Positions 18,019-20,595 of a DNA stretch of 37,882 bases are shown here, piece after piece; the stretch's first letter is position 1; every line of letters begins with the position of its first letter. The notes beneath the pieces are model-generated. The model was given only the letters and a program-made list of their open reading frames with translations, did not search any database and was not told where the DNA came from. The stretch spans positions 1 to 37,882 of the forward strand of contig DAOUTQ010000011.1 of NCBI GenBank assembly GCA_030668615.1, read 5' to 3'. The position numbers and the translations under genes were made by a program. The stretch is from Bacteroidales bacterium. Lineage in GTDB: Bacteria; Bacteroidota; Bacteroidia; Bacteroidales; UBA12077.

Positions 18019-19293
18019 TTAGTTTACAGTAAATAAGCTTAATTGTTTATGTGCGTTGTTACTGGATTTTTTAACAATACTCTTTTCACTTAAAAGAATC
18101 TTTCTGACATTCTTGGGTAATAATTCGTTTATGGTATGAGCTTTAAGTTCATTGCAAGTAATAAAGTATTTAGCTCTTTTTAATACAACTCCAATCTTTT
18201 TCAAATTTGATAAATTCAGCTTGCTGTAACGTCTTGCTAAAATGATCTTTTTAGCAGACAACACTCCAATACCGGGAACTCTAAGTATAGTTTCGTAGTT
18301 TGCTTTGTTAATATCAATAGGAAACATCCACGGATTGCGCAGCGCATAACTCAATTTAGGATCAATTTCTAAATCGAGATCGGGATGTTCATCATTTACA
18401 ATTTCATCAATCGAATAATTGTAAAATCTAAAAAGCCAGTCGGCCTGATAAAGCCTGTTTTCTCGTTTTAGAGGTGGCTCAATAAGAGCCGGCAACCTTT
18501 TGTCATAGCTATTTACAGGTATAAAACCTGAATAATAGACTCTTTTTAGATTTTTAGAATTGTATAAGTCCCCAGCTAAATTTAATATATGTTTATCGCT
18601 GTCAGGTGTTGCACCTACAATTAACTGCGTACTCTGTCCGGCTGGTGTAAACCTTGGTGCATGCCTGAATTTTTTTCTTTCTTCCTTATTTTCAATGATT
18701 TTACTTTTAATTGTATTCATCGGAGTAAGAATACTTTTAAAATTCTTGTCTGGTGCAAGTATTTTTAAGTTATTTTCAGTTGCTATTTCAATGTTTACGC
18801 TTAAACGATCAGCATATAAACCAGCTTGTTGTTGTAAATCATCGCTGGCTCCTGGAATTGATTTTAAATGTATATATCCGTTATAGTTTTGTTTAGTTCT
18901 GAGATCTTTAGCAACACGAACCATGCGTTCCATAGTATAATCAGGGTTCTTTATTACACCAGAACTTAAAAAAAGACCTTCGATATAGTTTCTTCTGTAA
19001 AATTCTATAGTTAGATCAACTACTTCTTTTACCGTAAATGTAGTGCGCTCAATATCATTACTTTTTCTGTTGGCACAATAGGCACAATCATATATGCAAT
19101 GATTCGTTAGCATTAGCTTCATAAGAGAAATACAACGTCCATCTTGAGTAAAGCTATGACAGATTCCCCACGGTGAGGCATTTCCTATACCTTTCCCGCT
19201 ATTAGGTCTATTGCTGCCACTTGATGCACATGACACATCGTATTTTGCAGCTTTTGCAGATATTTTTAGTTTATTTATAGTTTCAGCTTTCAT
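18019..19293 (-). CDS. Putative DNA modification/repair radical SAM protein (TIGR03916 type)
   Basis: 424 residues. The 4Fe-4S radical-SAM motif is CxxxCxxC at C66, C70, C73 (HCIYDCAYC); three more Cys (22, 45, 54) precede it. The barrel region follows (GLFLSSGVIKNPDYTMERMV, HLKSIPGASDDLQQQAGL, NIEIATENNLKILAPDK). The C-terminal part has a helix-hairpin-helix DNA-binding element (ILRVPGIGVLSAKKIILARR). The family is paired with the downstream DUF4130 protein and is thought to act on damaged or modified DNA; the reaction is not known. The gene starts within a 21-bp-periodic operator array and has a TATATTTG box 27 bp upstream, so it is probably regulated with the S24 regulator that lies divergently at 19813. 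Confidence 0.92.
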   Translation of the reverse strand: MKAETINKLKISAKAAKYDVSCASSGSNRPNSGKGIGNASPWGICHSFTQDGRCISLMKLMLTNHCIYDCAYCANRKSNDIERTTFTVKEVVDLTIEFYRRNYIEGLFLSSGVIKNPDYTMERMVRVAKDLRTKQNYNGYIHLKSIPGASDDLQQQAGLYADRLSVNIEIATENNLKILAPDKNFKSILTPMNTIKSKIIENKEERKKFRHAPRFTPAGQSTQLIVGATPDSDKHILNLAGDLYNSKNLKRVYYSGFIPVNSYDKRLPALIEPPLKRENRLYQADWLFRFYNYSIDEIVNDEHPDLDLEIDPKLSYALRNPWMFPIDINKANYETILRVPGIGVLSAKKIILARRYSKLNLSNLKKIGVVLKRAKYFITCNELKAHTINELLPKNVRKILLSEKSIVKKSSNNAHKQLSLFTVN

Positions 19294-19366
19294 ATTAGTT
19301 AATATACTAATTGTATTAGCAAATATACTAAATAATTTTACATTTATACTAATTTATTTAGTATAA
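19291..19366. promoter_or_regulatory. 21-bp-periodic operator array in the divergent control region
   Basis: The sequence TATACTAA occurs at 19303-19310, 19324-19331 and 19345-19352, exactly 21 bp apart, i.e. on one face of the helix. In the first two units it pairs with an upstream TTAGT or TTAGC to give TTAG(T/C)-N6-ACTAA inverted repeats (19295-19310, 19316-19331). An inverted copy, TTAGTATA, follows at 19358-19365. The array overlaps the minus-strand promoter of the radical SAM gene and abuts the plus-strand promoter at 19372. The likely binder is the S24/XRE regulator at 19813 (inference). Confidence 0.65.
19320..19327 (-). promoter_or_regulatory. Bacteroidota-type -7 box for the radical SAM repair operon
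   Basis: On the minus strand it reads TATATTTG, matching TAnnTTTG. It lies inside operator unit 2, predicting a start near 19313 and a leader of about 20 nt. No good -33 TTTG is seen, which suits a regulated promoter. Confidence 0.55.
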
Positions 19367-19371
19367 TGTAT

Positions 19372-19379
19372 TATATTTG
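19372..19379 (+). promoter_or_regulatory. Bacteroidota-type -7 box reading toward the cassette and S24 regulator
   Basis: TATATTTG on the plus strand matches TAnnTTTG. Predicted transcription would begin at about 19384-19387, essentially at the first base of the left inverted arm (19386). It was probably the regulator's own promoter before the cassette came in. Confidence 0.55.
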
Positions 19380-19385
19380 TAATAA

Positions 19386-19408
19386 GCTTTTAGCCTTTTG
19401 CTATTTGC
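19386..19408 (+). repeat. Left inverted arm of the cassette
   Basis: 23 nt pairing with 19774-19796 with two mismatches. Its inner end continues into CTATTTGCAAATAG (19401-19414), a perfect 14-bp palindrome, so the left end can also fold on itself. Confidence 0.75.
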
Positions 19409-19781
19409 AAATAGTATTTTTATTATTAGGAATTTTAGATCATTAAATATTTGGAAAGATGGAATTGTACTTGTAAAAAAGATCTACAAACTTGTAGAAG
19501 TACTACCAAGTGAAGAGAAATATGGTTTAAAAAGCCAAATATGCAGAGCTGTTGTATCTATTCCTTCTAACATAGCAGAAGGTTGTTCGAGAAATAGTGA
19601 AATTGAATTCAAAAGATTTTTAGAAATAGCTATTGGTTCTGCATTTGAATTAGAAACACAATTAATAATATTGTCTGATTTAGAATTTATTACAAAAGAA
19701 GACTCAATTCTAATATTAGAATTATTGAACAATGAACAAAGAATGATTAATGGTTTAATTAATAAAATTAACGGCAAATAG
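19398..19781 (+). CDS. Four-helix-bundle protein, S23/IVP (Avd-like) family
   Basis: About 115-127 residues, all-helical, matching the S23 ribosomal intervening-sequence protein family: LNIWKDGIVLVKKIYKL, then the signature VSIPSNIAEGCSRNSEIEFK and FLEIAIGSAFELETQL. Relatives form pentameric barrels; one branch (Avd) assists diversity-generating retroelements, another is encoded in rRNA intervening sequences. Function as a free gene is unknown. The start is a problem: no in-frame ATG lies near the N-terminus. The only conventional candidate is TTG at 19398, inside the left arm. By family convention translation should begin just before RNFRSLNIW, where the codon is ATT (19425-19427), perhaps a mutated ATG. 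The gene may be translated from a non-ATG codon or be silenced. It is upstream of, and co-directional with, the S24 regulator. Confidence 0.8.
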   Translation: MLFANSIFIIRNFRSLNIWKDGIVLVKKIYKLVEVLPSEEKYGLKSQICRAVVSIPSNIAEGCSRNSEIEFKRFLEIAIGSAFELETQLIILSDLEFITKEDSILILELLNNEQRMINGLINKINGK

Positions 19782-19796
19782 CTAAAAGCTAAAAGC
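19774..19796 (-). repeat. Right inverted arm of the cassette
   Basis: 23 nt, complement of the left arm at 21 positions. It contains the TAG stop (19779-19781) of the four-helix-bundle ORF and ends 16 bp before the S24 regulator start. It includes a short internal direct repeat, GCTAAAA twice. Confidence 0.75.
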
Positions 19797-19812
19797 AATT
19801 AAAAAATATAAA

Positions 19813-20595
19813 ATGGAATATATTGCTCAGAATATTAAGTATTTAAGGAAAGAAAAAGGCTTAACTCAAGAAGAATTAGCTAATAATATTGGTGTAAATC
19901 GTGCGATGATAGGTTCTTATGAAGAAAACAGAGCAGTTCCTAAATTATCAGTTTTAAAGGATATGGCTTATTTCTTTAAGATATCCATTGATGATCTAAT
20001 AAAAATAAGGCTTTGGGAAGAATCAAACCGTGATTCTATGCAGGAATTTGTAAAAGGTGATAATTTAAGGGTTATTAGTACTGTTGTAGATCAAACTGAT
20101 AAAGAACTTATTACTACAGTTCCAATTCAGGCTTCTGCTGGTTATACCAAAGGTTATGCCGATTCGGATTACGTTGAAGAGCTTCCTCACTTCTCTTTAC
20201 CTCTTATTGAACTTAGTAAAGAAAGAACCTACAGAGTTTTTCAGATAAAAGGTGATAGTATGGAGCCCATAAAATCAGGTTCTTATATTATTTGTGAATA
20301 CCTTGCAAATTGGGATGAAATATACGATGGCAAGCCCTATATTTTAATTTCGAAAGATGATGGGATTGTTTATAAACGATTATTTAATAAAATTAATGAT
20401 TCAGGTGAGATTATATTAAAGTCGGATAACCCTGAATATGAAGCATATTCAATAAAAGCAGAAGAAGTATATGAAGTGTGGAAAGCGCTTGGTTTTATAA
20501 GCTTTGAACTGCCTGAACCCGTTGAAATTACTACTCATAAATTACATAGTATGATTCTGGATATGAAAAACGATATAGATAAACTTAAAACTTAG
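19813..20595 (+). CDS. XRE-family repressor with S24 (LexA/CI-like) autopeptidase domain
   Basis: 260 residues. Residues 1-62 form a helix-turn-helix (IKYLRKEKGLTQEELANNIG, MIGSYEENRAVPK). Residues about 100-235 form an S24 peptidase fold: putative Ala109-Gly110 cleavage site (IQASAGYTKG), nucleophile S149 (KGDSMEPIKSG) and general base K188 (VYKRLF), with spacings close to LexA. The likely role is a repressor that self-cleaves in response to RecA filaments after DNA damage. Divergence from the radical SAM DNA-repair pair across a periodic operator array supports control of those genes and itself (inference). The start ATG follows the right arm of the IVS-like cassette by 16 bp, so the regulator's leader carries the cassette. 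It could also respond to another signal; many Bacteroidota S24 regulators are uncharacterised. Confidence 0.88.
   Translation: MEYIAQNIKYLRKEKGLTQEELANNIGVNRAMIGSYEENRAVPKLSVLKDMAYFFKISIDDLIKIRLWEESNRDSMQEFVKGDNLRVISTVVDQTDKELITTVPIQASAGYTKGYADSDYVEELPHFSLPLIELSKERTYRVFQIKGDSMEPIKSGSYIICEYLANWDEIYDGKPYILISKDDGIVYKRLFNKINDSGEIILKSDNPEYEAYSIKAEEVYEVWKALGFISFELPEPVEITTHKLHSMILDMKNDIDKLKT

Follow-up and report, generated by a model that had tools for sequence, protein, structure and literature searches.

An S23 gene in a heptad-repeat hairpin between protein genes: a probable free-standing relative of the 23S rRNA intervening sequences

What is a gene of the S23/IVP family, placed between two complementary arms, doing outside an rRNA gene and directly upstream of a regulator gene? 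The question arises from the window, by which we mean the whole stretch of 37,882 nucleotides analysed (contig DAOUTQ010000011.1 of assembly GCA_030668615.1, from a Bacteroidales bacterium placed in UBA12077). A preliminary description had reported two 23-nt arms pairing at 21 positions, and this pairing was confirmed: 21 of 23 positions are paired between the 5′ arm (19386–19408, + strand) and the 3′ arm (19774–19796, + strand). What had been overlooked is that both arms consist of 7-nt tandem repeats, GCTTTTA, GCCTTTT, GCTATTT and a final GC in the 5′ arm, GCAAATA, GCTAAAA, GCTAAAA and GC in the 3′ arm, a period-7 design found at other S23 flanks as well. These heptamers are intergenic and in tandem, like the known heptameric intergenic repeats. 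In our view the window probably carries a relation of the intervening sequence (IVS) of 23S rRNA that stands on its own: a heptad hairpin element embedded in a transcript, with the S23 protein as its hairpin-binding partner.

In the window, no other pair of 23-nt arms had at least 21 pairs and starts 300–599 nt apart, and one such pair in total was found among ten dinucleotide-shuffled versions of the window. A repeat search of positions 19340–19840 returned a single inverted repeat, the same arms lengthened to 52 nt, over which they are 75% complementary. The RNA fold of 19380–19800 had a z-score of −3.71 and was better than that of 100 out of 100 shuffles. Positions 19769–19801, which include the 3′ arm, formed the only lag-7 array in the window at the threshold used.

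The S23 ORF (19398–19781, + strand) encodes 127 amino acids from a mechanically assigned TTG start. The statement that the arms enclose this ORF and nothing else was correct as to its place between them and inexact as to its limits, since the ORF overlaps both arms and its TAG stop codon (19779–19781) lies within the 3′ arm. When the sequences were compared by eye, the ATG of the orthologues was found to be ATT in the window copy (at 19425, positions 19425–19427), with the frame still open; translation of this copy is therefore uncertain, and it may be decaying, a point against the reading proposed above. The HTH/S24-peptidase regulator gene (19813–20595, + strand; PF01381 and PF00717) begins 16 nt past the 3′ arm. 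On the other side, a divergent radical-SAM gene of a putative DNA modification/repair family (18019–19293, − strand; TIGR03916, E = 7.5e-194) borders the empty site in relatives. The cassette is predicted to lie at the 5′ end of the S24 regulator mRNA, from the gene layout and from TATATTTG at 19372–19379, which we take to resemble a Bacteroidota −7 box. The IVS-like plan proposed earlier, complementary ends closing a stem with an S23 ORF in the loop, was upheld. In L004, which comprises the window copy and 1.5 kb to either side, no Rfam family matched, and because an rRNA site is lacking the cassette is not itself a 23S IVS. The genome from which the window comes has eight S23 matches, several with complementary-looking flanks of quite unlike sequence.

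The assignment of the ORF to the four-helix-bundle S23/IVP family was borne out by profile and structure searches. PF05635 was its sole Pfam match (E = 1.8e-36, 125 bits against a curated cut-off of 33.8), and TIGR02436 matched with E = 4.8e-36 (123.3 bits, cut-off 24). The AlphaFold2 model was a confident four-helix bundle (pLDDT 90.1), whose best PDB match was 2GSC, the S23 protein XCC0516 of Xanthomonas (chain B, TM 0.87/0.94, rmsd 0.8), followed by 2RLD, also an S23 protein; after the S23 structures, Foldseek matched Avd (4DWL and 8UB7, E 0.018–0.04). The median dN/dS was 0.085 at the window site (10 pairs of five orthologues) and 0.08–0.14 in four sets of in-place orthologues, some dS values exceeding 2; S23 is therefore a constrained protein at those four resident sites. 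The cassette carries no movement enzyme, its one ORF not being a Y1 transposase of the RAYT kind.

A genome of 1.5 Mb in the gammaproteobacterial sample (G686) gave eleven PF05635 matches, of which the ten fetched (L369–L378, on G686:C1) are nearly identical genes. The idea that these copies reflect fresh transposition was dropped. We take the genes, by eye, to be Avd-like; the two flanks inspected contained a variable-repeat-like stretch and no evident heptad arrays, and G686 may be rich in diversity-generating retroelements.

The 7-nt design was common at S23 genes and recurs in several phyla. Among the genus loci, lag 7 was the best of lags 4–12 upstream in 48/77 and downstream in 47/77; it was also the best in 23/30 and 23/30 in the phylum and in 60/80 and 60/80 in public genomes, and the best of lags 5–12 in 28/29 and 26/29 in the gammaproteobacterial sample; these are best-scoring matches (the best 77 of a longer genus list, 30 from the phylum, 80 of 582 confirmed in public genomes, 29 from the gammaproteobacterial sample), several of them mutually orthologous, and the counts come from samples that were not drawn at random and are not independent. 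The last sample is the sampled class of a betaproteobacterial genome, presumably Gammaproteobacteria in GTDB usage. In controls, lag 7 was best in 36/280 far flanks and in 28/372 shuffled flanks. Other genes of the same loci gave 25/127 and 46/181 (20–25%), a rate that may be due in part to neighbouring cassettes and bare arrays, and genes in 400 kb of genome G009 gave 27/324 and 26/329 (8%). Autocorrelation over the flanks of 36–37 genus loci peaked at lags 7 (0.40–0.42), 14 (0.39) and 21 (0.35–0.40), the other lags giving 0.27–0.35. Period 7 was not clear at a share of the S23 genes, which counts against the hairpin-element reading, and a period of 8 was seen at a few loci (L251 and, by eye, L005), with 7 as the prevailing period. 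A strict pair scan of the 400 kb of G009 and the window found 8 pairs at lag 7, one being that of the window, and 3, 4, 11 and 13 pairs at lags 5, 6, 8 and 9; therefore no genome-wide number of bare hairpins was fixed.

The heptad type differs from locus to locus (GCTTTTA in the window, and elsewhere AGTATCA, AATTCAG, GGGAACA and TAAAAGC, among others) and is common to both arms of a locus. The suggestion that the arms recur with other S23 genes was correct for their design and not for their sequence type, which changes by locus; the surmise of a general class of cassette was upheld, the window copy being one of a large class with like-built arms. When 107 5′ arms and, independently, 105 reverse-complemented 3′ arms were aligned by rotation, both sets gave the consensus TTAGYNN, with G at 0.84–0.95 and 2.54–2.95 bits, compared with means of 1.85–2.22 bits in phase-permuted controls. 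G exceeded C in the 5′ arm of 140 of 184 loci and C exceeded G in the 3′ arm of 135 of 184 (3 of 187 loci having been dropped for short flanks or N runs). Stop codons in all three sense frames were present in 57 of 131 5′ arms (22.4 expected from shuffling) and in 36 of 128 3′ arms (9.7 expected).

Complementarity of a locus's own arms exceeded the 95th percentile of cross pairs at 53/77 public-genome, 35/76 genus and 13/30 phylum loci. Two results of this comparison, from which 4 of 187 loci were dropped for short flanks or N runs, speak against the hairpin-element reading: own arms were the best of their row at only 46/183 loci, and own arms scored in direct sense averaged 11.0 versus 13.3 when inverted. 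Duplexes of own arms were better than swapped duplexes (p = 2.4e-5 for 29 gammaproteobacterial-sample loci, p = 2.6e-7 for 29 phylum loci), in a test that covered the phylum, gammaproteobacterial-sample and orthologous-locus sets. Also against the hairpin-element reading, covariation of the arms within orthologous loci was not measurable (p = 0.10 for the bare hairpins of the V-ATPase junction, 0.31 for the S24 leader and 0.79 for the family L012–L022). RNAalifold gave no consensus pairs for ten bare V-ATPase hairpins, in our opinion because slippage by 7 nt defeats column alignment.

The preliminary description had suggested looking for an empty site in relatives, and such a site exists. S23 was present at the window site in 6 and absent in 10 of the 16 genus genomes that possess a close orthologue of the S24 gene; G001, G003, G008 and G014 lack such an orthologue. 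At this site in G007 (L045), AAGTTAATAGCTATT stands in place of the missing cassette and is perhaps the scar of a lost element. Another type of hairpin, with ends GCTTAGCGG/CGCTAAGC, was seen upstream of the S24 regulator gene in G012 (L049) and downstream of it in G016 (L047); it is perhaps a separate miniature element of the genus.

At the junction of the V-ATPase B and D genes, 18 genomes showed S23 between arms in 6, a bare heptad hairpin in 10 and neither in 2 (the gene was present in 18/19 genomes; G019 has only the 3′ part of S23 with its arm and was left out of the S23 tree). These states required 8 changes on the locus tree, against a mean of 7.0 for shuffled labels; being no fewer than with shuffled labels, the changes indicate that states at this junction are not clustered by descent. 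Four of the S23 genes at this site, those of G014, G005, G017 and G007, group together in a clade (100/100). The G016 gene is placed elsewhere, next to copies from another site in G016, G017 and G013 (modest support). Between two G016 loci, L037 and L076, there is an 83% match over 463 bases, which correspond to the cassette, and none over the flanks. Against the hairpin-element reading, the fold of 3 of the 10 bare V-ATPase hairpins is scarcely superior to that of shuffled sequences (z −0.3, −1.1 and −1.9), and many cassettes look inherited in place, as in the family L012–L022 and the S24-leader clade.

At the fadB–fadA junction of Flavobacterium, 30 loci were fetched from 41 genomes searched and 28 were scored (L363 and L368 were not located). 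The 28 genomes comprised 6 with S23 (4 read through; L355 and L364 called from an S23-like start alone and apparently interrupted), 15 with a bare hairpin, 6 almost empty and 1 with another palindrome. In the almost empty junctions the gap between stop and start codons was 3–5 nt in five and 29 nt in one. Lag 7 was the single best of lags 5–9 in 14 of the 15 bare hairpins (tied in L342), and L342, L360 and L365 were weak. The palindrome of another kind (L340) is 177 nt long, with ends CCCCCTAACCCCC and GGGGGTTAGGGGG. The four states required 9 changes, compared with a shuffled mean of 11.7. The stop codon at the junction was TAG at 13/15 bare-hairpin and 5/6 S23 sites, and TAA at 5/6 empty sites, as if the first heptad repeat supplied the stop codon. 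L358 and L359 are a close pair, the one with a gap of 3 nt from stop to start codon and the other with S23; the difference is the whole element, and a target-site duplication was not evident in this filled–empty comparison. No such duplication was seen elsewhere either, which, like the lack of a movement enzyme in the cassette, counts against the hairpin-element reading. The S23 genes at this junction are not one clade: 10 changes were counted, of which at least 3 are forced by well-supported branches, in a short and poorly resolved alignment. The window's own genome has a bare hairpin (L002) at the end of contig C132, and matches to AGC-type repeats, some of them half-hairpins only. Because bare hairpins occur at the same junctions, S23 sits in the loop of a hairpin able to exist alone; the earlier view of the hairpin as a mere wrapping of the ORF had to be given up, since the hairpin is often present without S23.

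PF05635 was present in all 20 genus genomes, with 1–19 matches each, in 232 of 296 phylum-sample genomes and in 77 of 369 genomes of the gammaproteobacterial class sample. A tblastn search with the window protein gave no S23 match in phage records; S23 was found in nineteen plasmid records, mostly cyanobacterial. Among 15 plasmid loci examined from these 19 records, 10 had period-7 arms of at least 18/28 on both sides, some of them perfect, for example those in Pseudanabaena that lie between cas6 and cas4. The others were L251, with period 8, and L243, L252, L254 and L255, one-sided or weak. In Azospirillum lipoferum, a 23S rRNA gene of plasmid AZO_p2 (Rfam RF02541, positions 292–3339 of L253) harbours the S23 gene, which has GACAGAG-type arms. 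The 29 loci of the gammaproteobacterial class sample gave no rRNA match in Rfam; the Rfam search covered 39 loci, and further rRNA insertions are possible among the remainder.

Several observations were made beside these counts. S23 cassettes lie within CRISPR-Cas operons of the cyanobacterial plasmid loci L242, L247 and L251, in the order cas6–S23–cas4 twice and Cas10–S23–Cmr3 once. Further S23 genes enclosed by distant paired heptad arrays were seen near S23 loci (L195:4553–4980, L221:1052–1540, L178:5507–6074 and L233:1244–1750), and it appears that S23 cassettes can be clustered. Heptad arrays also occur, apparently in frame, as low-complexity inserts within coding genes (L233:3948–4347, L202:1774–1973, L201:2141–2360 and L209:4189–4752), which by eye are epimerase- and glycosyltransferase-like.

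Of 130 cassettes that have a gene close by on each side, 110 were in sense orientation between co-directional genes and 8 were antisense; after collapse to 86 distinct gene contexts, the numbers were 66 and 8 (p = 2e-12). Control genes at the public-genome loci were co-directional with both neighbours in 72 of 104 cases and opposed to both in 5; the remaining sets supplied only 6 control genes. The leader of a regulator gene, where the window cassette was described, is therefore not the typical place, which is between two co-directional genes. That the sense orientation is retained favours a function, or at any rate expression, at the RNA level, and does not indicate the mode of movement.

Three other explanations of these data were weighed. 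An accidental pairing of AT-rich flanks, by chance or composition, deserves almost no credence: some loci do score no better than cross pairs, but the ten shuffled windows yielded a single arm pair and lag 7 alone was prominent among lags 4–12, and chance arms were rejected on these shuffle and lag controls. Improbable, if less extremely so, is a domesticated regulatory pair, in which S23 would bind its own arms and tune its operon, the hairpin being an attenuator or stability element and not mobile. Such a pair would account for the sense orientation, for the low dN/dS at resident sites and for arms that abut stop and start codons; it fits poorly with states that change between close relatives, with one cassette at two sites of the same genome (L037 and L076) and with 86 distinct gene contexts in 130 loci.

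The third explanation is a more serious competitor, though we still think it unlikely. Heptad hairpins would be primary, arising by slippage and inverted-repeat template switching, or being REP-like with an unknown mover, and S23 genes would be passengers that settle in loops, those of rRNA helices and of mRNA hairpins alike. It was observed that bare hairpins outnumber S23-bearing ones at the V-ATPase and fadB–fadA junctions and that one junction can be occupied by different S23 lineages, both as expected for passengers, and the excerpted texts of two papers report heptamer repeats without S23 (PMC4692102, PMC4679880). In the gammaproteobacterial sample, the presence of period 7 in 28/29 and 26/29 of the flanks at the best-scoring S23 loci is a closer association than an occasional passenger would show, and the single clade formed by the V-ATPase S23 genes of G014, G005, G017 and G007 is compatible with descent followed by losses that leave the hairpin.

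A transcript-embedded hairpin element with S23 as partner, the reading that we prefer, could work as follows. Since nearly all copies are retained in sense orientation, the element would act as RNA. An S23 oligomer, a fold relative of the Avd protein of the diversity-generating retroelement ribonucleoprotein, would recognise the repeats of its own hairpin and of bare ones. RNase III may cut the hairpin as it does in rRNA, which would release the mRNA of the neighbouring genes from the insert. Elements and bare hairpins would spread between gene junctions, or be exchanged at them, and S23 would often disappear from a hairpin that persists; excision and movement of the element are what we infer.

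A wider proposal can be made tentatively, and we rate it lower because the repeats of Nostoc and Beggiatoaceae are reported, in the portions of the sources available, to be mostly unpaired. S23 genes and heptad hairpins may together make up a single ancient family of mobile elements, embedded in transcripts and spanning several phyla, in which S23 would be the hairpin-binding component, bare hairpins non-autonomous or relict forms, 23S IVSs copies inserted into rRNA hairpins, and the heptamers of Xanthomonas, Nostoc, Calothrix and Beggiatoaceae traces, with movement via RNA or via single strands folded as the hairpin. Three things described separately, rRNA IVSs with S23, the four-helix-bundle orphans of Bacteroidota and bacterial heptamer repeats, would then possibly be one. 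The reading gives S23 a candidate substrate, the TTAGYNN hairpin, and predicts where hairpins lie; natural filled, bare-hairpin and empty sites are on hand for experiments.

In REP/REPIN elements, the gene for a Y1 transposase (RAYT) is flanked by hairpins, and bare hairpins lie between genes. The S23 elements resemble them in having a gene between hairpins and bare hairpins of the same type in the genome, and differ in that S23 is not a Y1 transposase and that their arms are 7-nt arrays of changing sequence. With the Avd of diversity-generating retroelements the likeness is one of fold, detected by Foldseek, and the Avd-like genes of G686 are in another setting.

The heptameric repeats known from bacteria include the STRR of cyanobacteria. 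According to the partial texts available, GGGAATC repeats of Xanthomonas and GGGGA(C/T)T repeats of Nostoc have the G-rich strand near the 3′ side of stop codons and the C-rich strand near the 5′ side of start codons, and convergent pairs number 70 and 75 in two Xanthomonas genomes and are few in Nostoc (PMC4692102); TAACTGA repeats of Beggiatoaceae lie directly before start codons, with one inverted set (PMC4679880). The same excerpts explain heptamers as G-quadruplexes, products of slippage or regulator binding sites, and no link to S23 was found in them (PMC4692102, PMC4679880). The elements described here share with these repeats the 7-nt unit and the strand bias at stop and start codons; they differ from those of Nostoc and Beggiatoaceae, mostly unpaired as reported in these excerpts, which also counts against the hairpin-element reading.

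For the 23S rRNA IVS of Coxiella, the available portion of PMC4990558 describes three tandem GACAGAT units ahead of the S23p start, whose number varies among strains; the RNase III site coincides with the beginning of the first unit. It notes the heptamers of this one IVS (PMC4990558). Literature searches turned up no paper that connects S23 genes generally with heptad arms, or the heptameric repeats with S23. S23p of Coxiella is called expendable in the same portion, in contrast to the low dN/dS of S23 at the four resident sites studied here (PMC4990558). Heptamers thus accompany 23S rRNA IVSs both beside the Coxiella ORF (PMC4990558, as excerpted) and in the arms of the Azospirillum insertion found in this work. 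The window cassette differs from an IVS in lying between protein genes, in having counterparts elsewhere that are bare hairpins and in lacking an rRNA site. It shares with the IVS the S23 ORF in a loop between complementary ends and the sense orientation, and S23 genes sit in the loops of bare-type hairpins much as IVSs sit in the loops of rRNA hairpins.
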